NCBI GenBank assembly: GCA_002855745.1
Contig: NDWX01000014.1
Location: forward strand, 1-46,712
Source: Thermofilum sp. NZ13
GTDB lineage: Archaea; Thermoproteota; Thermoprotei; Thermofilales; Thermofilaceae
Length of the DNA: 46,712 bases
Direction of reading: 5' to 3'
The notes under the pieces were generated by a model. It had not been told where the DNA came from. It did no database searches and saw only the letters and a program-made list of their open reading frames with translations. Below are positions 1 through 46,712 of this stretch, piece by piece (within the stretch, counting starts at the first letter, position 1; each line of letters starts with the position of its first letter). A program made the position numbers and the translations under genes.

Positions 1-100
1 TATCAGGCGATACCGGCAGATATCAAATGATATCACCTGATATCACGCGAAATCACCTGATATCATGTGATATCAGGCGAAATCAAGAGATACCGGGTGA
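1..100. repeat. 10-bp tandem array, consensus TATCANNNGA
   Basis: Ten consecutive units of exactly 10 bp fill positions 1-100; each starts TATCA (variants TACCG, AATCA) and ends GA, with three variable bases between. An eleventh, decayed unit may follow at 101-110. The array is cut by the left window edge, so its true length is unknown. Ten is not a multiple of three and the frames carry stops or odd peptides, so a coding origin is unlikely. One unit per DNA turn would place repeated protein contacts on one face of the helix. A ParB-like gene begins about 0.9 kb away; a link between the two is inference. Confidence 0.85.
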
Positions 101-1038: not shown

Positions 1039-1941
1039 GTGAGCGTCGAGGTCGCCTACGTCCCCCTTGAGAGGCTGGACGTGAGCGAGGAGTACAACGC
1101 CCGCCGAATAGTGCCGGAGGAGGAGGTGCAGAAGCTCAAGGAGAACATCAGGCTCAACGGCCTCCTCCAGCCCCTCGTCGTGACGCCGCCCGAGGAGGGC
1201 GGGGACAAGCTCTACGTGGTCTGCGGGAGGCTGAGGCTCGAGGCCTTAAGGAGGCTCAGCAGGGAGGACCCCCAAGCGTTCCAGAGGCTCTTCCCCAGCG
1301 GCGTGCCCGTTATAGTCAGGAGGATGACTAGGAGGGAGGCGCTGATCCTCTCTCTGAGCGAGAACATCCGGAGGGGTAGTATGGGGAAGGACGAGGTCGG
1401 CGCTGCGGTGGCGGAGCTGGAGGAGCGGTTCGGGCTGAGCAGGGAGGAGGTTCAGAGGCGCCTCCAGATGGCTGGCCACGAGCTCGAGGTGATCATGCGC
1501 GTCTACAGGGCTCTGCGGAGGCCCGTGGCGAGCCCCGTGAAGCCTGGCAGGCCGAGGAGCGAGGAGAAAGAGAGGCCCGTCTCGAAGACCGGCAGGGTGG
1601 TGCTGCACATGGCTGTGAAGAAGCTGGCTGAGAGGGGTCTGGTGAGGGATGAGGGCGAGGCGATCAGGAGGCTGGAGGAGGTGGCCAGGGGGATGAGCGT
1701 GGGGGAGGCGAAGCAGCTGGCCCACAGGATCCGCTCAGACCCCTACCTGCTCCGCGACGAGGACAGGCTGCGCAGGGTCGTCGAGGAGATCAAGGCCACC
1801 AACTACGTCGACCGCCTCGTCTCCATACGGGCGGACCACGTCGCCAGGATAACCGCGATAGCCGAGAGGGAGGGCAAGACCTTCGACCAGGTCCTCAACG
1901 AGCTCCTCGACGCCGCCTTCGCGAAGCTTGGGTACAAGTAG
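1039..1941 (+). CDS. ParB/Spo0J-family protein with RHH-like C-terminal tail
   Basis: Residues about 5-115 are a ParB N-terminal (ParB/Srx) domain: PLERLDVS, then VVCGRLRLEALRRL matching the nucleotide-binding GxRR-type motif, and SLSENIRR matching the ENxxR box. Residues about 125-155 look like the central helix-turn-helix. The last ~45 residues (VSIRADHVARITAIAERE onward) resemble a ribbon-helix-helix/CopG dimerisation and DNA-binding unit, unlike the bacterial ParB C-domain. ParB proteins bind centromere-like repeats and act in DNA partition or transcription. No ParA partner is visible in the window. A GAATTTAAG TATA-like element about 25 bases upstream of the GTG at 1039 suggests a leaderless transcript. 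Codon use is GC-rich, as in the adjacent accessory genes. Confidence 0.85.
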   Translation: MSVEVAYVPLERLDVSEEYNARRIVPEEEVQKLKENIRLNGLLQPLVVTPPEEGGDKLYVVCGRLRLEALRRLSREDPQAFQRLFPSGVPVIVRRMTRREALILSLSENIRRGSMGKDEVGAAVAELEERFGLSREEVQRRLQMAGHELEVIMRVYRALRRPVASPVKPGRPRSEEKERPVSKTGRVVLHMAVKKLAERGLVRDEGEAIRRLEEVARGMSVGEAKQLAHRIRSDPYLLRDEDRLRRVVEEIKATNYVDRLVSIRADHVARITAIAEREGKTFDQVLNELLDAAFAKLGYK

Positions 1942-2412
1942 CCGCTCACGGGCAGTAAATTGACCCTCAGTGGATTACAGGGCTTACTGGAGCAATAAAT
2001 TGACCTAAACCTGCACTCTGTTAACCACAAAGAGTGTCCCTACCGCCGCAAGCATCGCCTCAGCGGCGCCCGCCAGCACACCGTTCCTCTAGCCGCTGCC
2101 GGTGAGCTGACCTGCCTCACTTACAGGCGCCTGAAGGCCTCTGGCAACGAGGCGTGCTCCTCGAGCGGGATGCGGCTGTCTTCGATGTAGACGGGCTTCT
2201 CGAAGCTTTACACTAGCGTGTCGGAGTGCCCTGGCTTCAGGCCACACAGATCCTCACAGGCAAGCCCACCTGCTCCTCGTAACCCCGCGCAGCGCGGAGG
2301 GGGCTTTGATCTTGCGAGGAGTGTGCACCCAGCCCCTCGGCCGTGAGCCCTCGCCTCGCCGCGGGTGTGCTGTATCGAAAACAATAATAATATCTGCTGC
2401 ACTGCTATAATC
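1942..2412. other. Intergenic region with repeats and probable gene remnants
   Basis: No intact gene is visible. TAAATTGACC occurs twice (1956-1965 and 1996-2005), exactly 40 bp apart. On the minus strand two short stretches read like protein ends: 2121-2207 (KPVYIEDSRIPLEEHA... ending at TAA, with an in-frame stop just upstream and no start) and 2237 to about 2285 (YEEQVGLPVRICVA then stop). These look like eroded C-termini of small genes. AT-rich sequence at 2383-2395 is the likely promoter of the downstream ATPase gene. Confidence 0.5.
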
Positions 2413-4218
2413 GTGCGGAGGCCAGTCTGGGTTATTCTCTTAGTGCTACCTCCCACTGTAGCCTGGCTCTACGCCAGCAACCTCCTTTCAACGGCCACTA
2501 ACCCGCTCATGTGGGCTTTAAGGGCGGTGTGGGGTGCTGTGGTGATGACAGGTGCCCTGGCTTTGAGCGTTGCCTTGGCAGTGTGGAGCAAGAACGATGT
2601 GACACTATTGAGGAGCGAGGATGGCGTCATCGTGGGCACCGCTGGCGTCTACGCGTTCGCGATGGCTGTTGGCTATGCGGCCTCGCCAATCCCCCTGGCG
2701 TCGCTGCCCGTTGCCGACAGGCTCGCTGTATCGGTTGCCCAGAGGGGAGCCTTCGTTGCCTGCGTCTACTTCTCACTACTCAGGCCTCCAGTGGAGAGGG
2801 CTAAAGTTGCTGCGAGGGCTCTGGAGGCCCTGGGGTTCAAGGTGATCGACACGAATGTGCCGACAATCACTGCTGGCCGGGCGATGCCCGTGGAGTACGC
2901 CGACGGCTTCGGAACAATCGTGGTGGAGAGGGACTGGAGGGGCAGGGAGAGGGCCTCGTTCTACCCCGTCACCGGCCGGGGAAAGAGGGTGTACATCATA
3001 TCCCTGCCGGCGAGGCACCAGGCTGAGCCCAGAGCCGTCAGGGAGGCGGTGAACAGGCTTTTAATGCTCGCTAGGCCCCCGGCGCCCGGGGAGGGCATCG
3101 AGATAGGGGAGTACGAGGGGGGTGGGGCTTTGCTCCTGCCGTTCAACACGCACGTCGGCGTGTTCGGCATCACGGGTGCCGGGAAGAGCTCGCTGCTGGC
3201 GCTCATAGCGAGGGACCTGCCGGAGGACGTCTTGATCATCGACTTCTGGGGAGAGTACGCTGGCCTCTACGGGTTCCACGTGGCTAAGCCCGTCGACCCT
3301 GTCGTGGAGCTTTCGGCGGAGGAGGCCGCCGAGATACTGGACAACAGCGCTGAGCTGGTGTGGGGCGAGGACGGGAGGTTCACGCCCATCGTGTACAACG
3401 TGGTGGTGCAGGCCGTGCAACGGGTGGCTGAGAGGGGCGTGGAGCCCACGGCCGAGGCGCTGGTGGCCGAGCTGAGGGCCTGGAGGGCGAGGGAGTCTAG
3501 GCCGGACGTGGCGGCGGCGATCGACGCGGCCCTCAGGCGGGTAGCGCTACTGGGCGGTGGAGGCTTCAGCACGAAGCTGAGGCTCGGCCGCACAGTCCTC
3601 GACTTATCGGGCTTGAGCGACTACGCCAAGGTGGCTGTGGCTAACGCGGTCATCTACCGCCTCCTCAAGACCCGCGCCCACCGCAGGCTCACCGTCATAA
3701 TCGACGAGGTCCACCGCCTGGCGCCGACGAGGGGCTACTCGAGGCCCCTCGAGAACCTGCTCCGCGAGGGCAGGGCGCTGAACATACGAGTAGTCATGGC
3801 GGACCAGACCCTCACGGCCGTGAACAGCGCGGCCGTCAGCCAGTGCGGGATGCTCATAATCTTCCAGCACAACCCCGCAGACCTGCCAGTGCTGCAGAGG
3901 ATGCTCGGCAGCATGGCCAGCGTCGTGACCTCGCTCCAGCCTAGGGAGGTCTTGGTGTGGCACGGTGGGGGCTGGAGGCGCGGCGTCATACACGAGGCGC
4001 CCCGCCTAGCACCCAAGGGAGTTGCTACAATGCAGGCTAGGATCGAGGAGGTCGCGAGGATAGTGGCTCAGAGGTACAGGGTTAAAGCCGATGACATCCT
4101 CGCGCTCTACGACCTCAAGGCTAGGCCCGAGGGCCTGGAGGAGCCACTGAGGAGCGCCTACAGGGAGTTCCTCGCCAGGATAGGCGAGCCCGCTGACCCG
4201 GGAAGCCCGGAGGAGTAG
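2413..4218 (+). CDS. Membrane-anchored HerA/VirB4-type ATPase, CedB-like
   Basis: About 601 aa from GTG at 2413; an ATG-type frame extension to 2365 exists but an AT-rich TATA-like tract (about 2385-2395) would then lie inside the gene. The N-terminal ~125 residues hold several hydrophobic segments (VWVILLVLPPTVAWLYA; WGAVVMTGALALSVALAVW; GVYAFAMAVGYAA; GAFVACVYFSLL). The ATPase core has Walker A GITGAGKSS (about 252-260), HerA-type IIDFWGEYAG, and Walker B with DEVHRL (about 455). Length, membrane N-terminus and HerA core resemble CedB of crenarchaeal DNA import (Ced/Ted), homologous to conjugation ATPases. No CedA-like or pilin partner is seen, so it could also be a chromosome-pumping or plasmid-transfer ATPase. 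The upstream ParB-like gene suits a DNA-handling module. Confidence 0.85.
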   Translation: MRRPVWVILLVLPPTVAWLYASNLLSTATNPLMWALRAVWGAVVMTGALALSVALAVWSKNDVTLLRSEDGVIVGTAGVYAFAMAVGYAASPIPLASLPVADRLAVSVAQRGAFVACVYFSLLRPPVERAKVAARALEALGFKVIDTNVPTITAGRAMPVEYADGFGTIVVERDWRGRERASFYPVTGRGKRVYIISLPARHQAEPRAVREAVNRLLMLARPPAPGEGIEIGEYEGGGALLLPFNTHVGVFGITGAGKSSLLALIARDLPEDVLIIDFWGEYAGLYGFHVAKPVDPVVELSAEEAAEILDNSAELVWGEDGRFTPIVYNVVVQAVQRVAERGVEPTAEALVAELRAWRARESRPDVAAAIDAALRRVALLGGGGFSTKLRLGRTVLDLSGLSDYAKVAVANAVIYRLLKTRAHRRLTVIIDEVHRLAPTRGYSRPLENLLREGRALNIRVVMADQTLTAVNSAAVSQCGMLIIFQHNPADLPVLQRMLGSMASVVTSLQPREVLVWHGGGWRRGVIHEAPRLAPKGVATMQARIEEVARIVAQRYRVKADDILALYDLKARPEGLEEPLRSAYREFLARIGEPADPGSPEE

Positions 4219-4386: not shown

Positions 4387-4537
4387 AAGAGAGTGGGGCG
4401 AGAGGGGGTAGCGTAAGGCAGACCAGAGGCCCCGGGCACCTAGGCTACGCCGACCCCTTCGTGCTAGTGTTTAGGGGGGAGTGGCGGCCGGGGCCTGGGA
4501 GCCCGAGAGAAAGCCCCTTTAAAAACACCCTTTTTTA

Positions 4538-4598
4538 CCCCACGTAACCCCACCATTCACGCTCCTCAGGGACGTGGTGGGAGCGGGGTTACGTGGGG
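4538..4598 (+). repeat. Left-end hairpin of TnpB element, copy 1
   Basis: Perfect 14-bp arms CCCCACGTAACCCC (4538-4551) and GGGGTTACGTGGGG (4585-4598) flank a conserved core beginning ACCATTCACGCTCCTCAGGG. Copies at 42319-42373 and 42693-42752 keep the core but have different stem sequences that still pair. A T-rich run (TTTTTT) precedes each hairpin. This is the best conserved structural mark of the element. Confidence 0.85.
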
Positions 4599-5270
4599 GG
4601 CTGGGCCCCCCGTGAGGGGGGTGGCGGGCTACGTCGGTGAGGCTCCGCGCTTGTGGACGCTCCGCTCGTAGGGGCCTCCCGGCGTGGCAGCGGAGGCGTG
4701 AAGGTGCCGGCACGCGGGGCCGCGCCCCGATCGTAGGGGCCCGGCCCTGGGCCGGTAGTGCCCGCCCGCAAGCCGGCTGCCCGAGGCCTGCGCCCCGCTC
4801 CGCTCGCAGGGGCCTGGGCGCGGGCTAGGGCGGGGGGCTCTGCTCTCGGGCTACCCTACCCCGCCGCCCCCTGGCAGCCGGCCCCCTGCCCTCGGGGGTG
4901 GACGGGCCGCTAGCGCAGCGTTGGCGCCGCCGGGCCTGGGCTGGCTCGGCGGGAGGGCCGCATCAACAGCCCACGCGCCTGGGGCCGCGCGCGGCAGGCT
5001 GGGGCCGGGGTGGCCGAGTCACAGTGTGTGAGATTGTGCTCGTGACCGCTGATGCTGAGCGACGCGCCTGTGGACGCTAGCTCGCGCTGAGCTCTGCTAC
5101 TGTAACGACCGCTAGCTCACATGGTGTGAGACGCTACGCCGCCGCATAGCAGCGTACACCTCTGGGGGCTGGGCTTTGGCTGCGACTCCCCCGCACCTCA
5201 CGCCTCTGGGCGTGAGGGCGGATGGGGGCCGCGGCGCGAGGCCCGGCTCCCCGGTAAAAGGGGTGAGACT
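4599..5270 (+). ncRNA. Candidate structured leader RNA of TnpB element, copy 1
   Basis: This 670-bp stretch has no credible protein frame but matches the corresponding leader of copy 2 (41661-42318) over nearly its whole length, with conserved blocks such as GGTAGTGCCCGCCCGCAAGC and ACGGGCCGCTAGCGCAGC. One hairpin next to tnpB shows compensatory change between copies. This suggests a transcribed structured RNA, or a DNA structure, belonging to the element. In known TnpB systems the guide (omega) RNA is at the 3' end, so a long 5' structure is unusual. Whether it is transcribed cannot be seen here. Confidence 0.45.
5196..5217 (+). repeat. Hairpin upstream of tnpB, copy 1
   Basis: CCTCACGCC (5196-5204), loop TCTG, GGCGTGAGG (5209-5217): a perfect 9-bp stem with a tetraloop. 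In copy 2 (41717-41738) the stem is CCCCGCTCC/GGGGTGGGG with loop TCCG, still fully paired with two G-U pairs. Confidence 0.75.
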
Positions 5271-6677
5271 ATGAGCGGGGAAGGTAAGGGGAGTAAAAAC
5301 GGCGAGAAGCTCTTCGACGCGTACAGGGTCTGGGAAGTCAAGGCGAACAGGGAGCTGAGGTTGAGGCTCCGAAAGCTCTACTACGACATCGCCTCTGCGG
5401 TTGAGCGGGCCAGCGAGGAGCTCGAGAGGAAGCACGGCGACGCGTTCAGGAGGGAGCCGGGGAGGTTCAGAGAGGAGTTGATCGAGGGGGCCTCAAGGAT
5501 TGCGGGGCTGCCGAAGGGTCTCTTCTGGTACGCCGCGGAGTGGCGCAGGATGGTCGCGGAGGCCAGGGGGAAGTCTAAGAGGCGGAGCAGGTTCACACCG
5601 CCAGCGGTGCCGCTACTCGTGAAGGTGGTCAACGGCAACGAGAGGCTTCACGGCGGCGGTAACGCTGTTGCGGTGCTTGATGCCTCCAGTGGCATGCTAC
5701 GCGTCCCCAGTGCCAGCCTCACTGTGAGGCTGAGGCCCTCCCTTATCAAAGCAGTGCTCGAGGATATCCAGAGGTTCAGTGACGTGAAGCTGACTTTACA
5801 GCTCACAGCAAAGGGGAGGCTGAGGCTGGTGGCTCAGCGCAAGGTGAGGCCACCATGGTGGGACGGCGACGGCAAATTGGCCATCGTAGCGGTGGACGTG
5901 AACTCGAGCCACGGGCTCTACCTGATGGCCTTCGCATTCGACGGCGAAGTCAGGCTCATTGCTCAGCGCGTCTTCAAGCCGCCCAACACCACGTTGCTGA
6001 GGCTGCTGGCGGCGCTACTGCGTAGCTACTCCAAGGTTAAGTGCTGGAGTGAAGCCGTCGAGAGGTTCAGGGAGAGGAGGGACGTCAGGGGGCTGCAGAG
6101 AACGGGAAGGAGCCACGCGGTGGATGAGGCCTTGAGGCTCGCTGAGAGGCTCAGGGCGAAGATAAACATGACGCCGGAGCGCGCCGAGAAAGTAGCGGGG
6201 CAGGCGTCGAGGAAGGTTCGAAAACTCAACGACGACTGGATTCGCAGCGTGCTCAGGGAGATGAGGGTGCTGGTGAGAAAGCTACGGGACCAGGGCTACC
6301 TCGTCGTCATCGTCGTCGACGTGCCCCGGGCCGAGTCCCTCAGGGGCTCGCAGCTGCAGAGGACGCTGCTCAGAGTGGCGAGGAGGCTGGAGAACCTCGC
6401 TCTCTACGAGGGAGCGAAGTGGTTCGAGCCTGACAACAACGTCTCGGGCAAGTGGTGCCCACTGTGCGGGAAAGAGGGGGTGGAGGTTCAGAAGCGCTAC
6501 TACCGCTGCACGGGCTGCGGCCTGGTCTACGGCAGGGACTGGGCCACAACGTTCAACGCCGCCAAGCTCTTTTTAAAGGCCTGCGATACGAAGAAGCAGC
6601 TCGAGGCGCTACAGAGCTGGCTGCAGAGCCACCCACGAGCTCTGATTCACGGCTCGCTCAGCTTCCCCAAGCGGTGA
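5271..6677 (+). CDS. tnpB: TnpB-like RNA-guided nuclease/transposase accessory protein
   Basis: 468 aa. The C-terminal half is TnpB/OrfB-like: RuvC-I at AVDVNSSHG (D209), a long helical insertion, a RuvC-II position at VVIVVDVPRAES (D350, or E355), a four-cysteine zinc ribbon (CPLC 396/399 and CTGC 413/416), and RuvC-III at GRDWATTFNAAK (D423). The N-terminal ~200 residues would be the WED/REC region. Known TnpB proteins are omega-RNA-guided DNA nucleases. The usual RuvC-II Glu appears to be Asp here and in copy 2, so activity is uncertain. Start ATG follows a GGGGTGAG ribosome-binding site. It is full length and about 70-75% identical by eye to the copy at 40248-41660, with no frameshift, implying both are recent or maintained. 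Confidence 0.88.
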   Translation: MSGEGKGSKNGEKLFDAYRVWEVKANRELRLRLRKLYYDIASAVERASEELERKHGDAFRREPGRFREELIEGASRIAGLPKGLFWYAAEWRRMVAEARGKSKRRSRFTPPAVPLLVKVVNGNERLHGGGNAVAVLDASSGMLRVPSASLTVRLRPSLIKAVLEDIQRFSDVKLTLQLTAKGRLRLVAQRKVRPPWWDGDGKLAIVAVDVNSSHGLYLMAFAFDGEVRLIAQRVFKPPNTTLLRLLAALLRSYSKVKCWSEAVERFRERRDVRGLQRTGRSHAVDEALRLAERLRAKINMTPERAEKVAGQASRKVRKLNDDWIRSVLREMRVLVRKLRDQGYLVVIVVDVPRAESLRGSQLQRTLLRVARRLENLALYEGAKWFEPDNNVSGKWCPLCGKEGVEVQKRYYRCTGCGLVYGRDWATTFNAAKLFLKACDTKKQLEALQSWLQSHPRALIHGSLSFPKR

Positions 6678-6870
6678 AGGAGAGGAGGAGGCCCCGGCCC
6701 CCAGTTCCCGCTACGGCGTGTAGCCGTCTGGCGGGTGCCGCGCGCGGCGCGATGAGGCGAAGAGGCGCCGAGGCTAAAGCCCCGCCGCACAGCCCCTAGC
6801 TGGCGTATATTGGCGGGGCGGGCCGAAGGCGCGGAGCCCATGAAAACCCTTAAAAGGGGCCCTCAGAAGA
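6678..6870 (+). ncRNA. Conserved 3' region of TnpB element, candidate omega-RNA
   Basis: After the tnpB stop, about 190 nt are almost identical in both copies. A strong hairpin lies at 6707-6735 (CCCGC-ACGGC-GTGTA-GCCGT-GCGGG arrangement) followed by the palindrome GCCGCGCGCGGC. The copies differ mainly by a short indel near 6800. In studied TnpB elements the omega-RNA overlaps the tnpB 3' end and right end, so this is the expected place; transcription is inferred. Confidence 0.45.
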
Positions 6871-6900
6871 GTGAAGGGGGCAGATGAGCCGGGCGCGGCC

Positions 6901-36581: not shown

Positions 36582-38957
36582 ATGGCTAGTGAAGAGGTTT
36601 TCTGGATACTCGATGTGAACTACGAGGTTGTAGGAGGTATTCCAGAGGTTCGCCTTTGGGGGGTTTCCGAGAGCGGTGAGCGGATAGTCGTAATAGATCG
36701 CAGCTTCAGACCTTATTTCTACGTTCTCCCTTCCCAGAGAAAAGCGACAGACGATTTTTTGAGAAGAGTGCTTTCGAGCCTAAGTGGGGTTAAGACCCTT
36801 TCGGTTGAGAAGGTCGAGAGGAAATACTACGGAACACCTGTCGAGGCTGTCAAAGTTGTGCTGGCGGATCCTCGAGACGTGCCTAGAGCAAGAGAGCTCG
36901 TACCCAAGGCAATAGGCGTTGAAGAAGTCCTCGAGGCCGATATCAGGTTCTATATGCGTTACATGATCGACACCGGCGTTAAGCCTAGCTCGTGGCATAT
37001 CGTTAAGGTTAAAGAGTTAGAGAGGAGCCGCGAGTGGAGAGTCGACAGGGCGTATCTCGCAGTCGAACCTCCGAAACCCATTGATGAACAGAGGCTCCCG
37101 AATCTTAAGATATACGCCTTCGACATTGAGTGCTACAATAAGTTTGGAGAGCCGAACCCAGACCGTGACCCCGTGATTTTAATCAGTAGAGCTACCCGCG
37201 AGGGAGTCGAAACCTTTGAGGCTGATGAAAATGATGACGAGAGGCTTATCCGCGAGTTTGCGAACGACCTCCTCTCTCAAGACCCCGATGTTATTGTTGG
37301 CTATAACAGCAATCGCTTCGACTGGCCATACTTGCTTGCACGCGCGCACAGGTCGAGAATGAGGCTCGATGTGTCTCGAGGCGCTGGAGAGCCCGCCCAG
37401 AGTGTATACGGTCACTACAGCATTGTTGGAAGGGCAAACATAGATCTGTACGACTACGCAAGCGAGATCCCCGAGGTAAAGGTCAAGACCTTAGAAAACG
37501 TGGCCGACTACCTTGGAGTCGTTAAGAAGAGTGAGCGCATTCTAATAGATCCACTATCGATTTACGAGTACTGGGATGATCCATCAAAGAGAGACTTGCT
37601 GAGGCGTTACAACCGCGACGACGCTGTTAGCACGTTTAAGCTCGCTGAGGTTGTTCTACCCTTCGCGGTGCAGTTATCGAGCTTGGTCGGACTTCCTCTC
37701 GACCAAGTGTTCGCCGCATCTGTTGGTAATCGGGTAGAGTGGCACCTAATCCGTCAGGCCTTCCTTTACGGAGAGCTTGTTCCCAATGTTAAGGAGCGCC
37801 CCGAGGAAACGTACCGGGGAGCCATAGTCTTGAAGCCGAAGCCGGGCGTACACGAGAATATAGCGGTGCTCGACTTCTCTTCAATGTACCCGAACATAAT
37901 GATAAAGTACAATGTGTCCCCTGACACGTTCGTGCCTCCGGGAGTTGATGTTCACCCCGACGAGGTTTACACAGCCCCCGAGGTTGGCCACAGGTTCAGG
38001 AAAAACCCACCAGGCTTCTACGCAAAAGTTCTATCAAGCCTACTTGAAGCAAGGCGTCAAATAAGGGATCAGATGAAGCACTTGGACCCAAAAAGCGACA
38101 TGTACAGGATTTTGGACGAAAGGCAAAAGGCGATAAAGGTAGTGACCAACGCTACATATGGGTATAGCGGTTGGAGCCTAGCTAGGTGGTATATGCGCGA
38201 GGTCGCAGAGGCAACAACGGCCTGGGGCCGCGAGCTAATTAAGAGCGCACTCGCCTACGCTCAGAAGATAGGCCTTTACGTGCTTTACGGAGATACCGAC
38301 AGCCTGTTCGTCAAATACGACCGGGGTAAAGTAGAAGAGCTCATAAGGTTTGTTGAAAAGGAGCTAGGGTTCGAAATAAAGATCGACAAAGTTTACTCGA
38401 AAGTTTTCTTCACGGAGGCGAAAAAGCGGTACTGCGGTCTACTAGAAGACGGAAGAATAGACGTGGTCGGGTTGGAGGCGGTGCGCGGTGACTGGGCGGA
38501 AATATCTAAGGAAATACAGGAAAAAGTCATTGAGATCGTGTTACGCGGAGGGGATCCGTGGAAGGCCGTTGAGTACGTGCGAGCGATCATAAGGGATCTC
38601 GAGTTGGGCAAGATACCTATCTCGAAGCTAATCATATGGAAGACACTTTCAAAAAGTCTCGACGAGTACGAGGTGGACGCCCCGCACGTTAGAGCGGCTA
38701 AAGTGATGGTGAGCGCCGGTTGGAAAGTCGGTAAGGGATCGAAGATCGGCTATGTCATAGTAAAGGGAGGGGAACGGGTCTCGGAGAAAGCCCTACCGTT
38801 TTTCCTCGTTAAAAGCAACTCGGAGGTGGATGTAGAGTACTACGTTAAAAGGCAGATCGTGCCAGCCGCGCTACGAATCCTAGAGTACTTCGGGATAAAA
38901 GAAGAGCACTTCTACACAGGTAAAAGGCAGCAGACTTTGTTCGATTTCATGGGCTAG
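36582..38957 (+). CDS. polB: Family B DNA polymerase
   Basis: 791 aa. Proofreading exonuclease motifs are intact: FDIEC (D181, E183), GYNSNRFDWPYL, and YNRDDAVSTF. Polymerase motifs: DFSSMYPNIMIKYN (A), KVVTNATYGYSG (B), YGDTDSLF (C). The C-terminus QQTLFDFMG is a PCNA-interacting peptide. Length and intact exonuclease suggest a replicative PolB (PolB1/PolB3 type). A TATA-like TTATAATTC at about 36561 precedes the ATG. It lies 40 bases after psmB. Confidence 0.97.
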   Translation: MASEEVFWILDVNYEVVGGIPEVRLWGVSESGERIVVIDRSFRPYFYVLPSQRKATDDFLRRVLSSLSGVKTLSVEKVERKYYGTPVEAVKVVLADPRDVPRARELVPKAIGVEEVLEADIRFYMRYMIDTGVKPSSWHIVKVKELERSREWRVDRAYLAVEPPKPIDEQRLPNLKIYAFDIECYNKFGEPNPDRDPVILISRATREGVETFEADENDDERLIREFANDLLSQDPDVIVGYNSNRFDWPYLLARAHRSRMRLDVSRGAGEPAQSVYGHYSIVGRANIDLYDYASEIPEVKVKTLENVADYLGVVKKSERILIDPLSIYEYWDDPSKRDLLRRYNRDDAVSTFKLAEVVLPFAVQLSSLVGLPLDQVFAASVGNRVEWHLIRQAFLYGELVPNVKERPEETYRGAIVLKPKPGVHENIAVLDFSSMYPNIMIKYNVSPDTFVPPGVDVHPDEVYTAPEVGHRFRKNPPGFYAKVLSSLLEARRQIRDQMKHLDPKSDMYRILDERQKAIKVVTNATYGYSGWSLARWYMREVAEATTAWGRELIKSALAYAQKIGLYVLYGDTDSLFVKYDRGKVEELIRFVEKELGFEIKIDKVYSKVFFTEAKKRYCGLLEDGRIDVVGLEAVRGDWAEISKEIQEKVIEIVLRGGDPWKAVEYVRAIIRDLELGKIPISKLIIWKTLSKSLDEYEVDAPHVRAAKVMVSAGWKVGKGSKIGYVIVKGGERVSEKALPFFLVKSNSEVDVEYYVKRQIVPAALRILEYFGIKEEHFYTGKRQQTLFDFMG

Positions 38958-38986
38958 GCAAGGCTACAAAGATATGTGAGGGGGGC

Positions 38987-39640
38987 TTAAAGGAAGTCTA
39001 TTAGAAGTATGTGAGCGTTGCTCGTTAGCTCATAAATCGTGTCGGAGCTGTCTTCAAGCATCTCTGCGATGCTCAACAAAAGAAGCGACGTGCTGCTTGA
39101 CACGTTTGAATCAAGGATGCTGAAGATCGTATTACGATAAATGCCGTCAATTTTATTCTCATAGTCTGAGATCCTTCTTATATCCTCCAGTGCTTGAGGG
39201 GGGCTGGACTGAAGCCTGTTGAGAAGATCATCCATTGCGCTGAGCATCTGCTCGAGTTCCTGACACATGTCCAGAAGGCCTGCCTGAATGTGTGCAGGCA
39301 CAACCCAGTTTCGCTCAATGAGGAAGCTCAGCCTGTAAGTTATGCCGCTCAGCTTGTCTATAACCTCCATTATGCGTGAGCCTATTCTGACCCACTCCTC
39401 CTTATGTTCAAGCACGCGCGAGATCTTGGAGAGGTAGGTTAGGTACTCTGTCTGAAGATCCTTTGTCTGGTTTTTAGCTGTCTGAGCGTGTTCTAGGAGC
39501 CTCTTCTGCCCCTCCCGTTGCGCGGGGTCGCTCAGACTTTTAAGCACTCTGCGAATGTCGCCGAGGATTTCCTGAGCGATAGTGAGCTCCCGGCGAAGTA
39601 TAGAGATCAGCCTTGCGTCCGCTATAGACACATTGGACAC
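38987..39640 (-). CDS. DUF47/PhoU-like helical protein
   Basis: 217 aa, entirely helical. Its layout, with repeated E/D-rich helix ends (LDMCQELEQMLSAMDDLL, ISDYENKIDGIYRNTIF, IAEMLEDSSDTIYEL), matches the DUF47/PhoU-like family that often accompanies phosphate transporters; no PitA transporter gene is in the window. Its start lies 2 bases after the stop of the upstream 88-aa gene, so they are co-transcribed. Function is inferred only from family. Confidence 0.75.
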   Translation of the reverse strand: MSNVSIADARLISILRRELTIAQEILGDIRRVLKSLSDPAQREGQKRLLEHAQTAKNQTKDLQTEYLTYLSKISRVLEHKEEWVRIGSRIMEVIDKLSGITYRLSFLIERNWVVPAHIQAGLLDMCQELEQMLSAMDDLLNRLQSSPPQALEDIRRISDYENKIDGIYRNTIFSILDSNVSSSTSLLLLSIAEMLEDSSDTIYELTSNAHILLIDFL

Positions 39641-39642
39641 TG

Positions 39643-39909
39643 CTAACCACCCGCTCTAGCCCTGACCGTGGCTATCGTGTAATCTGCGACGCCCTGCATT
39701 TTAAGCTCGTCGGTGTTGCACCACACCTCGTTCGGCGGCACTTTATCGTTGGGTTGAGCCTGGAAATACAGCTTCTTCTTACCCGCTATCACAACCTCGA
39801 TGGCTGATGATATCCCCAGCTCCGCCATCATTGACGGATTCATGTAAGCCTTACCTTCAGGTACCTCGTCACGCCTTCTAAGCCTCAGCCTGCGCTCCTT
39901 CCTTTGCAT
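39643..39909 (-). CDS. Small double-psi beta-barrel-like protein, 88 aa
   Basis: The sequence EGKAYMNPSMMAELGISSAI, VVIAGKKKLYFQAQ, then VWCNTDELKMQGVADYTIATV resembles the CDC48/VAT N-terminal double-psi beta-barrel in strand spacing, preceded by a very basic start (RKERRLRLRRR). ATG 39909 is preferred to the TTG at 39912. A TAAAAATATATTA TATA-like tract at about 39940 lies upstream. It is paired with the DUF47 gene. Function is unknown; adaptor or nucleic-acid binding is possible. Confidence 0.6.
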   Translation of the reverse strand: MQRKERRLRLRRRDEVPEGKAYMNPSMMAELGISSAIEVVIAGKKKLYFQAQPNDKVPPNEVWCNTDELKMQGVADYTIATVRARAGG

Positions 39910-40038
39910 CAAGACACCCTGGGAAAAACGATGGCTTGTAATATATTTTTACTTTTCACGCTCTTAAAGCCACTCCGACCGCCTTACCCTAATCTTTCTA
40001 ACGCGACCGGGAGAAATCGCATAGACAACGCCTTTTCG

Positions 40039-40247
40039 GGCCGCGCCTGGCTCATCTACCCCTTCACTGATCCGGGGCCCCGTTAAGGGTTTTCATGGGC
40101 TCCGCGCCTTCGGCCCGCCCCGCCGGCTTGGGGCTGTGCGGCGGGGGCTCCGCCTCGGCGCCTCCTTGCCTCATCACACCGCGCGCGGCACCCGCCAGAC
40201 GGCTACACGCCGTGGCGGGAACTGGGGCCGGGGCCTCTCCCTCTGCT
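40039..40247 (-). ncRNA. Conserved 3' region of TnpB element, copy 2, candidate omega-RNA
   Basis: Nearly identical to 6678-6900: the ACGGC-GTGTA-GCCGT hairpin, a GCCGCGCGCGG block and the end motif AACCCTTAACGGGGCCCC. Beyond that, a GTGAAGGGG.AGATGAGCC segment also matches the start of the tgtA long frame; here it carries an in-frame TAG and is not coding. Confidence 0.45.
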
Positions 40248-41660
40248 TCACCGCTTTGGGAAGCTGAGCGAGCCGTGTATCAGTGCTCTCGGGTGGCTCT
40301 GGAGCCACTGGCTCAGCGCTTCTAGCTGCTTCTTCGCATTGCAGGCCTTCAAAAAGAGCTTTGCAGCGTTGAATGCTGCGGCCCAGTCCCTGCCGTAGAC
40401 CAGGCCGCAGCCCGCGCAACGGTAGTATCTTCTCTGAACCTCCACCCCCTCTTTCCCGCAGAGGGGGCAACGCTTCCCAGACACGTTATTCTCAGGCTGG
40501 AACCACTTAGCCCCCTCGTAGAGCGCTAGGTTCTTGACGCGCTCCGCGACCCTCAGCAGTGTTCTCTGTAGCTTTGTTCCCCTCAGGCTCTCGGCCCTTG
40601 GCACGTCTGCTACGAGTACAACAAAGTAGCCTTGGTCCCTGAACTTTCTGACCAAGGCCCTTAGCTCCTTGAGCGCGCCTCTGATCCAGTCGTTGTTAAT
40701 CTTCTTCACTTTCCTCGATGCCTGCCTAGCTATGCGCTCAGCCCTCTCCGGCGTGAGGTTCACCTTCGCCCTCAGCCTCTCCGCCAGCCTCAAGGCCCCT
40801 TCCACCGCGGAGCCCCATCCTTCCCTCTGTAGCCTCCTGATGTCTCTCCTTTGCTTGAACCTCTCGACAGCTTCGCCCCAGCTCTTAACCTCGGAGTAGC
40901 TGCGCATAACAGCCGCGAGGAGCCTCAGCAGAGTCGTGTTGGGCGGCTTGAACACGCATTGAGCCACCAGCCTCACCTCGTCGTCGAAGGTGAAGGTAGC
41001 GAGGTAGAGGCCGTGGCTGCTGTTCACGTCAACGGCGATTGTTGCTAGCTTGGAATTGCCGTCCCACCGGGCAGGCCTCACTTTGCGGTGCGCAATGAGG
41101 CGAAGCCTGCCCCTAGCCGTTAGCTGCAGCGTCAGCTTCACGTCGCCGAACCTCTCGACGTCCTCGAGTACTGCTCTAATCAAGGATGGCTTCAGCCTCA
41201 CCACGACACCAGCGCTACTAATGCGTAGCTCACCCCTGTATGTGTCAAGGACTGCAGCGGCGTTAGTGTTACCGTGGAACCTCTCACTGTTGCCGACCAC
41301 CTTGACCAGTAGTGGCAACGGCGGGGGCGTGAACCTTGTGCGCTTGTTGCTTTTCCTCCTGGCCTCCGCATCCATCCTGCACCACTCCACAGCGTAGTAG
41401 AGCAGGCCCTTCGGCAGCCCAGCCAGCCTCGAAGCCTCCTCGATTAACTCCTCTCCGAACCTCTCCGGCTCTTGCGTGAATTCCTCGCCGTACTTCCCCT
41501 CGAGATCCTCGCTGGCGTGCTCAACGGCAAGGGTGATGTCGGAGTAGAGCTTTCGGAGCCGAAGCCTCAGCTTCCTGTTAGCTTTAATCTCCCAGACCCT
41601 GAACGCATCGACGAGCCTCTCGCCGTTTTTACTCCCCTTGCTCCCGTTTCTCTCACTCAT
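40248..41660 (-). CDS. tnpB: TnpB-like RNA-guided nuclease/transposase accessory protein, copy 2
   Basis: 470 aa, full length. Same motifs as copy 1: RuvC-I IAVDVNSSHG, RuvC-II position VVLVADVPRAES (Asp instead of the usual Glu), zinc ribbon CPLC and CAGC, RuvC-III GRDWAAAFNAAK, and an identical C-terminus SHPRALIHGSLSFPKR. The two N-terminal insertions relative to copy 1 are small. A GAGGTGATGG site precedes the ATG. Intact frames in both copies, with protein identity lower than DNA identity of the flanks in places, suggest continued selection on the protein. Confidence 0.88.
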   Translation of the reverse strand: MSERNGSKGSKNGERLVDAFRVWEIKANRKLRLRLRKLYSDITLAVEHASEDLEGKYGEEFTQEPERFGEELIEEASRLAGLPKGLLYYAVEWCRMDAEARRKSNKRTRFTPPPLPLLVKVVGNSERFHGNTNAAAVLDTYRGELRISSAGVVVRLKPSLIRAVLEDVERFGDVKLTLQLTARGRLRLIAHRKVRPARWDGNSKLATIAVDVNSSHGLYLATFTFDDEVRLVAQCVFKPPNTTLLRLLAAVMRSYSEVKSWGEAVERFKQRRDIRRLQREGWGSAVEGALRLAERLRAKVNLTPERAERIARQASRKVKKINNDWIRGALKELRALVRKFRDQGYFVVLVADVPRAESLRGTKLQRTLLRVAERVKNLALYEGAKWFQPENNVSGKRCPLCGKEGVEVQRRYYRCAGCGLVYGRDWAAAFNAAKLFLKACNAKKQLEALSQWLQSHPRALIHGSLSFPKR

Positions 41661-42318
41661 ACCCCATCACCTCTTTCTCTCGGGAGGCCGGGCCTTGCGC
41701 CGCGGCCCCCGTCCGCCCCCACCCCCGGAGGAGCGGGGTGCGGGGGAGCCGCAGCACAGCCCAGCCCCCCTCAGGGGCGCTGCGTAGTGTCTCACGCTGT
41801 GTGAGCCCTGCTGGTAACTGACGCAGTCAAGTCGGCTCGCAACTCAGCGTGTAGTAGCCTGCAGAGCGCTGGGCGCGTCGGTCAGCATTAGCGGCTATAA
41901 GCGCAGTCTCACTTGCTGTGAAGCCCCGGCCTGCCGCGCGCGGCCCCAGGCGCGGGGGCGTCGACGCGGCCCTCCCGCCGAGGCCAGCCCAGGCCCGGCG
42001 GCGCCAAAGCTGCGCTAGCGGCCCGTCCACCCCCGAGGGCGGGGGGCCGGCTGCCAGGGGGCGGGGAGCAGCCGAGGGCCGCCGAAACCCAACCCCTCGC
42101 CCTAGCCCGCCCCAGGCCGCGTGGGCGTGGAGGCGGGCCTCGGGCAGCCGGCTTGCGGGCGGGCACTACTGGCCCAGGGCCAGGCCGCGTGGGCGCGGCC
42201 CCGCTAGCCGGCACCTTCACGCCTCCGCAGCCGCGCCGGGAGCCCGCGTGGGGATCCCTGGGGGCGCGGCGCCTCACCGGCGTAGCCCGCCACCCCCCTC
42301 GCGGGGGGCCCGGCCTCC
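41661..42318 (-). ncRNA. Candidate structured leader RNA of TnpB element, copy 2
   Basis: Counterpart of 4599-5270. It keeps the conserved blocks and the tnpB-proximal hairpin, and accumulates changes concentrated in stems or in spacer segments. Many long frames cross it on both strands because of its extreme GC content, but none agrees between copies, so a protein is unlikely. Confidence 0.45.
41717..41738 (-). repeat. Hairpin upstream of tnpB, copy 2
   Basis: On the element strand CCCCGCTCC-TCCG-GGGGTGGGG; all nine positions pair, two as G-U. Copy 1 has a different stem sequence at the same place, so pairing is conserved rather than sequence. Confidence 0.7.
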
Positions 42319-42373
42319 CCCTCTAACCCACTCCCACCACGTCCCTGAGGAGCGTGAATGGTGGGTTAGAGGG
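42319..42373 (-). repeat. Left-end hairpin of TnpB element, copy 2
   Basis: Arms 42319-42331 and 42361-42373 pair perfectly over 13 bp (CCCTCTAACCCAC on the element strand) around the same core as copy 1. The stem differs from copy 1 at several positions on both sides in a compensatory way. Confidence 0.85.
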
Positions 42374-42489
42374 AGAAAAAGGGGTTGTTTTCGGCGGCCC
42401 CGGCCCTCTGGCTCCACCGCCTTTCCCCCCTAAACACTAGTGCGCTGGAGGCGGTGCAGCCTAGGTGCCTGGGGCCTCGCCTCCTGCAG

Positions 42490-42814: not shown

Positions 42815-43510
42815 CTAGGTGGCTGGTTCCTCCCGCAGTGCTCGCAGGTCCACTCTCCAGTACCTCTTCTGGATCACTCTGTCCTGGGGGTACTCTGTCA
42901 CCCTCTCCTCGAGGTACGCCACGTCGGGGCTCGAAATCATCCTGAACAGCCAAGCCTCGCTCAATGTCCAGGAGGTCAGGGTTTCGACCCCCCTCCACCG
43001 CTCCTCGCTCGCCCTGCTGCCGAGCAGTATCGTTACGATGGGCACGCCGAGGCCCCCGGGGGCCCTGGAGGCCCTCGCGAAGGCCCCGGCCGGCGCGTGG
43101 CGCTGCATCTCGTCCCTGAACCTGCTCAGCCAGCTGTACCACTCGCGCATCTCCGCGCTCGTGTCGGAGAGGCTCTTGCCGTAGCTGGCGTAGACGTCGA
43201 CCTTCACTGTGCCACCCCGCGCGCTGTACTGCAGGTGGGCGTACTCCCTGGCGCCGTAGACGAGGACGGCCTCCGCCCGCTCCCCCTCAGCTACCTGCAT
43301 CAGCCACGTCCACTCCTGGATCTCGAGCAGGGACATGACCCCGAGGGCCCTCAGCACCTCTTGGCCGCGCTGCACCTCGGAGCTCCTCCGAAGCTCGCAG
43401 TGCCTCTCTACGATGCCCATCAGCGAGTCGAAGAGCCCCCTGAGGACGTCGTGGGGCAGAGTCCTCGACGCGCTCTGATGCTCCCTGAGGTACTCCTCAA
43501 GGCTTCGCAT
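42815..43510 (-). CDS. Unrecognised protein, 231 aa
   Basis: Starts at ATG 43510, overlapping the upstream helicase gene by 14 bp. No family is recognised. It is rich in E, R and W; likely helical segments are SLEEYLREHQSASRTLPHDV, LEIQEWTWLMQVAEGE and SDTSAEMREWYSWLSRFRDE. A central strand-rich part (AVLVYGAREYAHLQYSA, TVKVDVYASYG) precedes GLGVPIVTILLGS. There are no zinc or nucleotide-binding motifs and no membrane segments. As the last gene in the operon with an XPD-type helicase and a HerA-like ATPase it may be a nuclease or adaptor partner, for example NurA-like, but conserved acidic motifs for that could not be confirmed. Confidence 0.7.
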   Translation of the reverse strand: MRSLEEYLREHQSASRTLPHDVLRGLFDSLMGIVERHCELRRSSEVQRGQEVLRALGVMSLLEIQEWTWLMQVAEGERAEAVLVYGAREYAHLQYSARGGTVKVDVYASYGKSLSDTSAEMREWYSWLSRFRDEMQRHAPAGAFARASRAPGGLGVPIVTILLGSRASEERWRGVETLTSWTLSEAWLFRMISSPDVAYLEERVTEYPQDRVIQKRYWRVDLRALREEPAT

Positions 43511-44975
43511 TAGTACCACCGCCCTCTATTTTCTCCAGGTTCCTCAGGTCAACCTCCTCGAGCACCAGCGTCGGGCTGAAGTCGAAGCGCCTGAAGCGGT
43601 AGTCCGCCAGGACTATGAGCGGGCTGTCCTCGGGCTTCCGGGTGGCCCTCCCGACGCACTGCAGGGTTGTGGTCACCATCGGCACCCACCTCGCAGCCTC
43701 ACCGCTGATGCCTAAGCGGTTGTAGTAGCGCTCGTACCTCGCCTCCACCTCAGGCGGCAGGAAGGGCGCCCCCAGGAGGACTACAGCGTCCGCGGAGAGG
43801 TCGACTCCCTCGCTGAACCTGCCGTAGACGGTGTAGAGCGCCACCCCCCTCCACTCCGCTGGGAGGCGCTCCTCGTAGAAGTCCACCCCGGCGATGATTT
43901 GCCTCGCAACCCTCTCTGTGGCGAAAGCCAGCACCCTGGCGAATCTACGCCTCAGCGTGGCCAGCAGCTTGACGTAGCCCCAAATCGTCTCCGAGCCGTA
44001 CTTGCTCGTCAGGTCCGTCACCACGAGTGCCTTCCTCGGCTGCTGAGGCACCCTGACGACCTGAGCCCCGAAGAGCCTCTCCAGCCCCTCGGGGATCGTC
44101 GCTGAAACGTAGACGCGCGGCTCGACGCGGGGCCTCCAGGGGGGCATGTAGACCTCCACGGTCCCAGCCTCCCTGTAGGGCACGCCGCCGTCCGCCACAG
44201 CCCTGAGGTACTGTACCAGCGGCGCCAGGTGCGACCTGCTGGCCTTGAGCTTCTCGCGGTAGAGCGGCAGGACGCTGTCGAGCAACTGTAGCGCAGCCTC
44301 GGCCGAGGGCTTCTCCAGCACCTCCTCGGCCTCACCGGCCAGCTCCGGCTCGCTTGTTCTCAGCTCGTCGAGCGCCAGCTCCAGCCTCGCGGCGCTGAGC
44401 TTTCTGACTCTTGGCGCGAGGAGGTTGTGCACCTCGTCCACCACCGCGGCGCTGTAGTAGCCGCTCACCCTGCGGTGGTAGTTCTGGACCACCACGTCGG
44501 CTCTGCTAATGATTGCGTCCTGGGCGTAGTAGTGGCACACTCCCGGTAGCAGTTTAGGTAGCTCCTCCCAGCTCTCCGCCCATATGTCGCCCACCCCCTC
44601 CCTGACAAGGGAGAGGAAGTGGGGGCACTGCGCCCTGAAAGCCCTGCAGAACTCCGAGGCGTCCTCGACGCTCCTCGCGTAGGGGCACAGCCTCTCCCTG
44701 CCAGCCGCCACAAAGGCCCTCAAGCCCAGCCTCGAAGCGTCGGCGACAACGCGCCTGCCAACCTCCAGCGCTCTGGTGAGCCACAGCGCCGGCAGCCGCC
44801 GCGAGGCCTTCAATGCCGCCAGCACGGCCAGCGTCTTGCCCCAGCCCGTCGGAGCCACCAGCAGCACGTCGCCCTCGCTCAGCGCCGAGGCGATGAGCCT
44901 AGCAACCTCGGCCTGCCCAGGCCTCGGCTTAAGGCCCGCTTTCTCGAAGAGCTCCTGGACGCTCAACGCCGTCAC
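43497..44975 (-). CDS. XPD/DinG-type Fe-S helicase
   Basis: 492 aa SF2 helicase. Walker A VAPTGWGKT (about 41-48), the DEVH box at 180-183, late motifs GRFSEGVDL and QCVGRATRKPEDS. Four cysteines C97, C110, C117, C147 (LCPYA, FCRAFRAQCPHF, VCHYY) lie between motifs Ia and II, as in the Fe-S domain of XPD/DinG/FANCJ. Such enzymes unwind DNA 5'-3'. The protein is shorter than canonical archaeal XPD and the cysteine spacing (12, 6, 29) differs, so it is likely an accessory paralogue. It follows the HerA-like gene by 1 base. A defence or repair role is inference. Confidence 0.88.
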   Translation of the reverse strand: MTALSVQELFEKAGLKPRPGQAEVARLIASALSEGDVLLVAPTGWGKTLAVLAALKASRRLPALWLTRALEVGRRVVADASRLGLRAFVAAGRERLCPYARSVEDASEFCRAFRAQCPHFLSLVREGVGDIWAESWEELPKLLPGVCHYYAQDAIISRADVVVQNYHRRVSGYYSAAVVDEVHNLLAPRVRKLSAARLELALDELRTSEPELAGEAEEVLEKPSAEAALQLLDSVLPLYREKLKASRSHLAPLVQYLRAVADGGVPYREAGTVEVYMPPWRPRVEPRVYVSATIPEGLERLFGAQVVRVPQQPRKALVVTDLTSKYGSETIWGYVKLLATLRRRFARVLAFATERVARQIIAGVDFYEERLPAEWRGVALYTVYGRFSEGVDLSADAVVLLGAPFLPPEVEARYERYYNRLGISGEAARWVPMVTTTLQCVGRATRKPEDSPLIVLADYRFRRFDFSPTLVLEEVDLRNLEKIEGGGTNAKP

Positions 44976-44976
44976 C

Positions 44977-45834
44977 TCAGAACAGGCGGTAGAGGTGCCA
45001 CCTGCCGTTGTGGAAGGCGATGAACTGTCCCGGCTTCAGCTTCACGATGTACGCCGGCAGGCTGAACTTTTGGATGTAGAGGACGTCGTAGGGGCCGAGC
45101 GGGCCGATGAACATCGTGGGGTAGTCTGCCTCGCTGCCGTCCGGGAACTGCTGGACCCGCACCACCTTTACGCCCCGCCTGCGCCCCACCCGCACGAGGT
45201 CCGTCAATGTTGGTGCGTAGAAGCTCGCCTCCTCGGCCACCAATGTCGTCGGCACGCTGTTCGAGGAGAGGAGCACGTCGCTGATCGCCGCGGCCAGCAC
45301 TGATGCCGCAGTGGCCTTGTTCCACGCCGACCTCAAGGGGGCCAGGTTGAACCTGCCCCCCTCCGCGATTATGTCCTTGAAGCGCTCCAGCGTCGTCAGC
45401 TCAGCGCCCGCCTCAGCGAGCGGCTGAAGCCGCGACCAGGCCGCAGTCGCGCCTAGGCGGTCAAGCACCACCAGCTTCTCGACCGCTCTGAGCAGCCCCT
45501 CGAGGCCCCCGTCCTCGGAGGCCTCCCTCACCGCGCGCTTCAGCACAGCGTACGTGCTGCTCCCGCTGGTCTGCGACTCGCGCTTCACCACCTCCGCCAC
45601 CGCCTGCGGGAGGACTTCCCGCGGCAGCAGCAGAGGCAGCTCATCAGCGCTTTGACCGTACTCGCCGTCGAAGTCTATGATGAGCACCCTTTCGCGCGCA
45701 CCTTGCTTCTGCGAGCTCCGCGCGATGTAGTAGAGGAGGGCTTTCACCAATGAAGTCTTGCCGCACCCTGACTGCCCTAAAACGATGGTGTGCTGCCGGC
45801 TCTCAGCCACTTTCTGCAAGAGAGACTTGAACAA
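44977..45834 (-). CDS. Soluble HerA-like ATPase
   Basis: 285 aa, small and without membrane segments. Walker A LGQSGCGKTSLV (20-28), HerA-type VLIIDFDGEYGQS, Walker B-like TTLVAEEASFYAP, and a C-terminal LKPGQFIAFHNGRWHLYRLF. HerA family members are hexameric DNA translocases. It differs from the membrane-anchored HerA-like protein at 2413-4218. It is in an operon with a winged-helix protein, a 95-aa protein and an XPD-type helicase. No nuclease (NurA) is obvious. Confidence 0.85.
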   Translation of the reverse strand: MFKSLLQKVAESRQHTIVLGQSGCGKTSLVKALLYYIARSSQKQGARERVLIIDFDGEYGQSADELPLLLPREVLPQAVAEVVKRESQTSGSSTYAVLKRAVREASEDGGLEGLLRAVEKLVVLDRLGATAAWSRLQPLAEAGAELTTLERFKDIIAEGGRFNLAPLRSAWNKATAASVLAAAISDVLLSSNSVPTTLVAEEASFYAPTLTDLVRVGRRRGVKVVRVQQFPDGSEADYPTMFIGPLGPYDVLYIQKFSLPAYIVKLKPGQFIAFHNGRWHLYRLF

Positions 45835-45840
45835 GGCTCC

Positions 45841-46128
45841 TCACCTCGCCTTCGGCGGAATCAATAGCACTATCTCGCCCCAGTCCGGCGCCGAGAAGCC
45901 GTAGAGCCGGTCCCTGTTCTCCAGTATCAGCTTGCCCACGCAGTCGCCCTCTGAGCCGTAGACCTCCACGCCGTTCTCCCAGATTACCACGACCGTCCAC
46001 CCAGCCTTGCCGAGGTCGAGGAAGATCTTGGAGGGCCTCACCGGCGCCTCCCACTCGTAGATTCGGTCCTCGATTAGGTCCAGCAGCTTAACCATACCTG
46101 CCAGCTTGTACGCCTCCACCCTCACCAC
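45841..46128 (-). CDS. Unrecognised protein, 95 aa
   Basis: Mixed alpha-beta: an N-terminal helix (LAGMVKLLDLIEDRIYEWEA), then strands around KIFLDLGKAGWTVVVIWENG and GEIVLLIPPKA. It has one isolated Cys and no recognisable motif. It lies 1 base after the winged-helix gene and 6 bases before the HerA-like gene, so it is part of the same operon and probably a small subunit or adaptor. Confidence 0.65.
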   Translation of the reverse strand: MVRVEAYKLAGMVKLLDLIEDRIYEWEAPVRPSKIFLDLGKAGWTVVVIWENGVEVYGSEGDCVGKLILENRDRLYGFSAPDWGEIVLLIPPKAR

Positions 46129-46129
46129 C

Positions 46130-46387
46130 TCAAAGCAGAGCTATGATGTCGCTCAGCCCGATGTCGGGCGTCAGGACGAAGAGCTGCACACGGTAGCGGA
46201 GCGGGCCGGTGGCGGCGAAGGTGCTCCTCGTCAGCCTCGCCACGCTTCCCGTGCTCTCCAGATACTCTAAGACGGCGAGGGCTGTTCTGGGCGGCACCTT
46301 TGCAGCCCTGGCAACCTCCGCTACGCTCACGGCGCCGCGCTTGGAGAGCCGCTCGACCGCGTCAACAACCCTCAAGTAGGCCTCCAT
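46130..46387 (-). CDS. Small winged helix-turn-helix protein, 85 aa
   Basis: The N-terminal ~50 residues form a helix-turn-helix (RGAVSVAEVARAAKVPPRTA then LAVLEYLESTGSVARL) typical of MarR/ArsR-like proteins. The C-terminal part (YRVQLFVLTPDIGLSDIIAL) is unusual. It lies within the HerA/XPD operon and may regulate it or be a DNA-binding component of the complex. Confidence 0.7.
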   Translation of the reverse strand: MEAYLRVVDAVERLSKRGAVSVAEVARAAKVPPRTALAVLEYLESTGSVARLTRSTFAATGPLRYRVQLFVLTPDIGLSDIIALL

Positions 46388-46393
46388 GCCCGC

Positions 46394-46712
46394 TCACCCC
46401 CTCAGAGAGCGGTAGACGATGTAGCCGGTAACGCGGCTGTTCATCAGGCCGTATCTGAGGAAGAACTGGGCTAGAGTCGGCGAGCCGTCGACGTCCTCGG
46501 AGATCAGCACCACCCTGCCACGCGCCTTGGCCAGAACGAAAGCCCTCTTCACGGCGCTGAGCAGCTCAAACTCCCTCGGGTCCATGCAGTGGTAGAGCTC
46601 GCTGGGAGCTATGCCCCGGAGAAGCAACGTAACGGTGCCGTCGTTGCTGCTCAAGGCCTTGACCCGCTCCCCATTCGGGGACGCGGGCCCGGGGATGTCT
46701 ACGCCGGCGCGC
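46394..46712 (-). CDS. Partial unrecognised protein, truncated by the window edge
   Basis: The frame is open from 46712 to the stop at 46394; TTG at 46654 is the first listed start but the in-frame sequence upstream (GVDIPGPASPNGERVKALSS) remains open to the edge, so the gene probably begins outside. Visible: TVTLLLRGIAPSELYHCMDP, AVKRAFVLAKARGRVVLI and SPTLAQFFLRYGL. No family is recognised. It is upstream in the HerA/XPD operon, with 6 bases to the winged-helix gene. Confidence 0.6.
   Translation of the reverse strand, partial: RAGVDIPGPASPNGERVKALSSNDGTVTLLLRGIAPSELYHCMDPREFELLSAVKRAFVLAKARGRVVLISEDVDGSPTLAQFFLRYGLMNSRVTGYIVYRSLRG

Follow-up and report, generated by a model that had tools for sequence, protein, structure and literature searches.

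At the right end of a contig from Thermofilum sp. NZ13, six co-directional ORFs on the minus strand (42815-46711) form an operon that joins a predicted Fe-S helicase of the XPD fold to a small FtsK/HerA-superfamily ATPase. From the sequence comparisons below, we regard it as an evenly balanced judgment that this operon serves as the DNA-processing module, for unwinding and pumping, of an integrated GC-rich element of the conjugative type, and that it is related to a helicase used in DNA exchange by the host. The window, by which we mean the whole stretch of DNA analysed, is the entire contig C6 (46,712 bp) of a 33-contig genome, and therefore the start of the operon is absent from the assembly. 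A circular contig was considered and rejected, as the two contig ends do not overlap. Our comparisons drew on 27 Thermofilales genomes, several of them incomplete.

The operon genes are separated by gaps of 6, 1, 6 and 1 bp and share one 23-bp overlap. Third-position GC is 0.81-0.89 in each of the six frames, and the longest open stretch spans 512 codons, whereas 200 mononucleotide shuffles never exceeded 410 and had a median of 224. Spacing, ORF length and third-position GC together uphold the tightly packed six-gene operon described in an earlier note on this DNA. Beginning at the contig end, the minus-strand genes encode a 5′-truncated 105-aa protein (46394..46711; third-position GC 0.85), an 85-aa winged-helix protein (46130..46387), a 95-aa protein (45841..46128), the 285-aa ATPase (44977..45834), the 492-aa helicase (43497..44975), and a 234-aa protein (42815..43519). 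The last of these had been read as 231 aa, but its longest ORF starts from a GTG and gives 234 aa, with the 23-bp overlap falling on the helicase gene. The winged-helix call in the same note agrees with weak matches of the 85-aa protein to AbiEi_4/TrmB/IclR-type winged helix-turn-helix (wHTH) domains.

The predicted helicase carries SF2 motifs, a DEVH box, and four cysteines (C97, C110, C117 and C147), whose 12-6-29 spacing had been given correctly from the start; Pfam Helicase_C_2 matches it at 5.5e-14. Across 16 aligned family members, including the window protein, G46-K47-T48, D180-E181, H183, and all four cysteines are invariant. An AF2 model (pLDDT 88.8) finds its best structural match in XPD 3crv (Z 22.2 over 448 residues, 20% identity). 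The protein thereby combines the SF2 motifs, DEAH-type box, four domain-1 cysteines, and XPD fold of the XPD/Rad3 Fe-S helicase family. On sequence and model, it is an XPD-fold helicase with a predicted Fe-S site, and not an XPD orthologue. The earlier note had allowed that its reading would fail if this were the organism's only XPD orthologue; however, the same genome holds larger XPD-type open frames of 647 aa on contig C1 and 599 aa on C5, as well as an 82% identical paralogue on C29. In a tree, the window helicase family branches apart from the genome's larger XPD-type proteins, and the window protein groups with its nearest relatives, 82-83% identical, in a clade of three with support of 100/100.

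This family appears to be confined to one order. Members at ≥36% identity were found in Thermofilales only, and a contig search with the helicase alignment recovered close relatives (36-42%) only in records labelled Thermofilales, Thermofilaceae, Thermofilum or "Thermoprotei archaeon". The remaining matches were at 22-34% or were short motor matches, as expected from ordinary XPD-type helicases. The single helicase sequence gave no match in the contig collection, the alignment gave just short, weak motor matches in viral contigs, and nothing was found in a plasmid collection searched with the helicase and the HerA-like protein.

The small HerA-like ATPase named in the earlier note is also borne out. 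The 285-aa protein matches Pfam DUF87/HerA at 3.8e-8, and its Walker A (GQSGCGKT) and Walker B (EE at 201-202) motifs are both intact. A profile of four HerA-like relatives searched against the PDB placed HerA first (4d2i, 1.9e-8) and a VirB4-like protein next (4ag5, 8.8e-6), in keeping with an FtsK/HerA ATPase core. Because the P-loop starts at about residue 20, there is no room for the N-terminal HAS barrel of HerA, and no operon protein matches NurA; the operon thus lacks both the barrel and the adjacent nurA gene that mark HerA-NurA. Elsewhere in the genome, contigs C14 and C30 (L115, L114) carry two separate herA-nurA-mre11-rad50-like sets, their identities read from sequence. A single-sequence search with the 285-aa protein found no relative in other Thermofilum genomes.

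Co-occurrence in other genomes had been proposed as a check on the operon, and it holds for the ATPase-helicase pair, which recurs in three other genomes, but not for the six-gene set. In G003, a 474-aa HerA-like partner adjoins the helicase. In G007, a 266-aa HerA-like ATPase is followed by a coiled-coil gene and then the helicase, and a 36-kb island of G026 repeats this order with a 311-aa HerA-like ATPase, a coiled-coil gene, and the second helicase of that genome. Identity between these paired ATPases and the 285-aa protein is low, at about 26%. Genes for the 105-, 95- and 234-aa proteins have no relatives in any of the 26 other Thermofilales genomes, so the six genes are not one conserved system. 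The profile searches that had been advised for these three proteins matched no family in Pfam, NCBIfam, PHROGs or PADLOC, and the 234-aa protein also had no relatives in viral contigs. Its AF2 model (pLDDT 44) was uninformative and was set aside.

The right end of the contig is 66% GC vs. about 50% in the chromosomal part, and a TnpB insertion sequence on the minus strand (40039..42478; tnpB 40248-41660) forms the junction between the two, which bears out the placement of a GC-rich operon beside mobile elements. An inverted TnpB copy, 77% identical, lies at 4426-6900, ends next to the start of tgtA, and marks the second chromosome/GC-rich junction. We also note that contigs C29 and C30 end in the same TnpB repeat. 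The chromosomal part aligns with a same-species genome, G023, at 98.4% as far as 40040, which falls within a HerA-like gene; only a C-terminal remnant of this gene (residues 297-323; 39967..40047, minus strand) is left here. This gene is intact in G023, and there and in most relatives it sits next to polB. Its residues 1-119 lie on contig C4 beside another GC-rich stretch, while the 588 bp of the G023 gene between the two breakpoints were not found in this assembly. G023 has none of the genes for the 285-, 234-, 105- and 95-aa proteins. The window segment is an insertion into the chromosomal HerA-like gene, and this close relative has nothing inserted there. A scan of island ORFs, with boundaries partly read, revealed neither an integrase nor a relaxase, and neither att sites nor an origin.

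The chromosomal sequence next to the insertion (36582-40047) reads polB, two small genes (217 and 89 aa), and the HerA-like gene, an order found in most Thermofilales. We considered whether the helicase had kept an ancestral place near polB, as the copies adjoining polB in G006 and G007 might imply, and rejected this, as in G023 and other Thermofilum genomes the position next to polB is taken by the HerA-like gene. On C4, the GC-rich stretch (1-23900; L120, L112) encodes a 1225-aa type IIG-like restriction-modification protein and a 1443-aa AAA protein.

At the left contig end, a plus-strand gene for a ParB-like protein (1039..1941), 40% identical to the ParB of the G026 island, marks the same type of island, and is followed by a gene for a 617-aa membrane-anchored FtsK/HerA ATPase (2365..4218, plus strand) with a weak CedD match and a near-copy on the genome's own C30. 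These genes lie on the same contig as the right-end operon and may belong with it to one element. ParB-bearing islands occur in four copies in the genome (window left end, C30, C17 and C29), one of them disrupted. GATATCA repeats spaced about 10 bp apart occupy window positions 1-95, and similar arrays recur elsewhere in the genome on two ParB islands related to this one (L215:6016-6143 and L216:10013-10150); they are perhaps iterons or a ParB site.

The island of G026 (C1:1369300-1405400; L042/L116) is contiguous and GC-rich. It encodes ParB, a Rad51-like RadA, a C2H2 protein, a wHTH protein, VirB11 (T2SSE, 2e-15), MinD, an AAA ATPase, pilin-like proteins (Pilin_N matched weakly), numerous proteins with a single TM segment, a 4-TM HerA/VirB4-like ATPase, and a 1403-aa membrane protein. 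Contiguity of the HerA-like ATPase, coiled coil, and helicase with T4SS-type genes of an island is seen only in G026. Taken together, its genes give this island the look of a conjugative-type element of Thermofilum that has yet to be described. The window operon likely belongs to an element as complete as that of G026, with the contig ending at the operon start.

The closest relatives of the window helicase lie in a Ced/Ted-like DNA-exchange locus, which resembles type IV secretion. Directly upstream of the paralogue on C29 is a VirB11/TrbB-type ATPase, and the locus also holds a CedD/VirB4-like ATPase (CedD model, 9e-11), membrane proteins, MinD, and a coiled-coil protein. Both here and in G023, the helicase gene and the VirB11, MinD and coiled-coil genes ahead of it diverge from those for the CedD/VirB4-like ATPase and membrane proteins. 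This arrangement at the helicase recurs in G023, G026, G021 and T. pendens, whereas G025 has the helicase behind MinD. Overall, the helicase is linked to a Ced/Ted-like locus in 6 of 7 Thermofilum genomes. An 805-aa membrane protein of this exchange locus is present in all seven and elsewhere was detected just weakly, in G014 and G003; no NCBIfam model matched the membrane proteins of the Thermofilum locus. Six genomes from other genera of the family have a solitary helicase gene flanked by nrdG and pheS, and the 805-aa protein is absent from them, indicating that the helicase family has another job too.

Island and host helicase copies also appear to exchange sequence through gene conversion, judging from patterns of identity in three comparisons. 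The window and C29 genes are 80.6% identical overall but share 113 consecutive bp without a mismatch (0 of 2000 permutations), and identity varies along their alignment, with some stretches at 97-100% and others next to them at 52-57%. In G026, the helicase copies are 99.4% identical and the adjoining coiled-coil genes 79%. Finally, the C29 helicase is 90.8% identical to its G023 counterpart, with neighbouring genes at 95-98%. Such conversion would mean that host and island copies lived side by side.

That the closest relative of the helicase sits in a DNA-exchange cluster points to a role for the pair in making DNA ready to pass from cell to cell. Going by XPD enzymology, the helicase would separate the strands of the DNA that is to be passed on. 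The small HerA-family ATPase could then assemble into a ring and drive the DNA along, taking the place of the VirD4-type coupling ATPase that serves in bacterial conjugation. An envelope machine of the VirB11/VirB4 type, such as the G026 island and the exchange locus encode, would pass the DNA on, and the winged-helix protein might regulate the operon or bind an origin of transfer. Genes for VirB4, VirB6, pilin and VirB11 are all absent from the operon itself. The FtsK/HerA superfamily includes the VirD4 coupling proteins (PMC12857230).

Neither archaeal conjugative elements nor the Ced/Ted systems have a known relaxase, and the making of single-stranded donor DNA is unsettled (PMC9905601, PMC12857230). 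Published models for Ced/Ted give this role to HerA-NurA (PMC9905601); the helicase may be an alternative or an addition to HerA-NurA. Found both fixed behind VirB11 and on an inserted element with a HerA-like motor, it is a concrete candidate for single-strand making. A broader proposal, which we offer only tentatively, is that a dedicated XPD-family helicase, coupled to a VirB11- or HerA-type ring ATPase, is the strand-separating engine of relaxase-free conjugation or DNA exchange in Thermofilales, with domesticated host and mobile versions that keep exchanging sequence.

The genes could serve other ends. HerA and XPD-type helicases are DNA-repair enzymes, and the G026 neighbours include ParB, RadA, and an AAA ATPase; the pair could act with these three to help an integrated element with partition, replication restart or recombination rather than transfer, and the standalone chromosomal helicase copies have no transfer link. 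However, on the Thermofilum chromosome the relative of the helicase keeps company with VirB11 and MinD of the exchange locus and not with replication genes, and the operon has no replication initiator, so we hold a maintenance role to be rather unlikely. Alternatively, the operon could be a decaying remnant, its genes of mixed origin joined by TnpB insertion sequences and without a joint function. The disruption of one of the four ParB-bearing islands, the TnpB sequences at both junctions, and the lack of relatives for three of the six genes fit such decay. Yet all six frames are open, with strong third-position GC bias and operon-like spacing, the helicase motifs and four cysteines are intact, and the ATPase-helicase pair recurs elsewhere, which leaves decay very improbable.

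The earlier note had seen an undescribed defence or DNA-processing system, and it is the DNA-processing half that gains support. An anti-virus or anti-plasmid operon on a genomic island would combine the HerA-like motor and helicase with an effector that has gone unrecognised, the 234-aa protein being the candidate. HerA-like ATPases and XPD/DinG-like helicases do occur in defence systems, the PADLOC mad8 (3.8e-11) and type IV DinG (6.7e-36) models match the operon motors, and the part of the broken gene found on C4 borders the GC-rich stretch with the type IIG-like restriction-modification gene. Against this, Pfam, NCBIfam, PHROGs and PADLOC show no effector domain in the small proteins, and PADLOC gives neither an effector nor a partner for them. 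An effector of the kind found beside HerA (SIR2, DUF4297 or a nuclease) was not recognisable among them by PADLOC/Pfam, although divergent ones could escape. The operon has no cas partner, the G026 pair sits among transfer and partition genes rather than defence genes, and the nearest helicase relatives are VirB11-linked or beside housekeeping genes. The operon corresponds to no recognised defence system. We therefore consider defence unlikely and retain DNA processing for a conjugative-type element as our preferred reading.

Compared to known systems, the operon shares parts with several. Like XPD (Sulfolobus XPD 3crv; S. tokodaii Xpd4 2vl7), the helicase has the fold, helicase motifs, and four-cysteine site, but it is only ~20% identical, 492 aa long, spaced 12-6-29, and set apart from the genome's own larger XPD-type proteins. 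It resembles the CasDinG of type IV-A CRISPR in its PADLOC match and similar fold, whereas that fold is nearer to XPD and the operon lacks csf and cas genes; the other operon proteins had no cas or csf match in PADLOC, placing the operon outside type IV-A CRISPR. As in HerA-NurA end resection, a HerA-family ATPase is paired with a DNA-processing enzyme, but here without NurA and without the HerA N-terminal domain. Ted loci are reported to carry HerA-like helicases and MinD (PMC9905601, PMC11868833), and the paralogue locus shares a CedD/VirB4-like ATPase, a MinD/VirC1-like ATPase, and membrane proteins with Ced (Sulfolobales) and Ted (Thermoproteales). By contrast, the window operon has no core CedA/CedB/CedA1 or TedA/TedB/TedC genes; the VirB4/CedB-, VirB6/CedA- and pilin-like genes of such a locus are missing from it and partly present at the paralogue locus. 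The literature we searched described no XPD-type helicase in Ced/Ted systems. With archaeal conjugative plasmids and integrated elements that have VirB4/VirD4-like ATPases (reviewed in PMC12857230), the operon and its relatives share FtsK/HerA-superfamily motors, no known relaxase, and integration into the host genome. They differ from these elements in joining an XPD-family helicase to a small HerA-like ATPase and, in G026, in bringing VirB11, MinD, ParB, and RadA together in one island.
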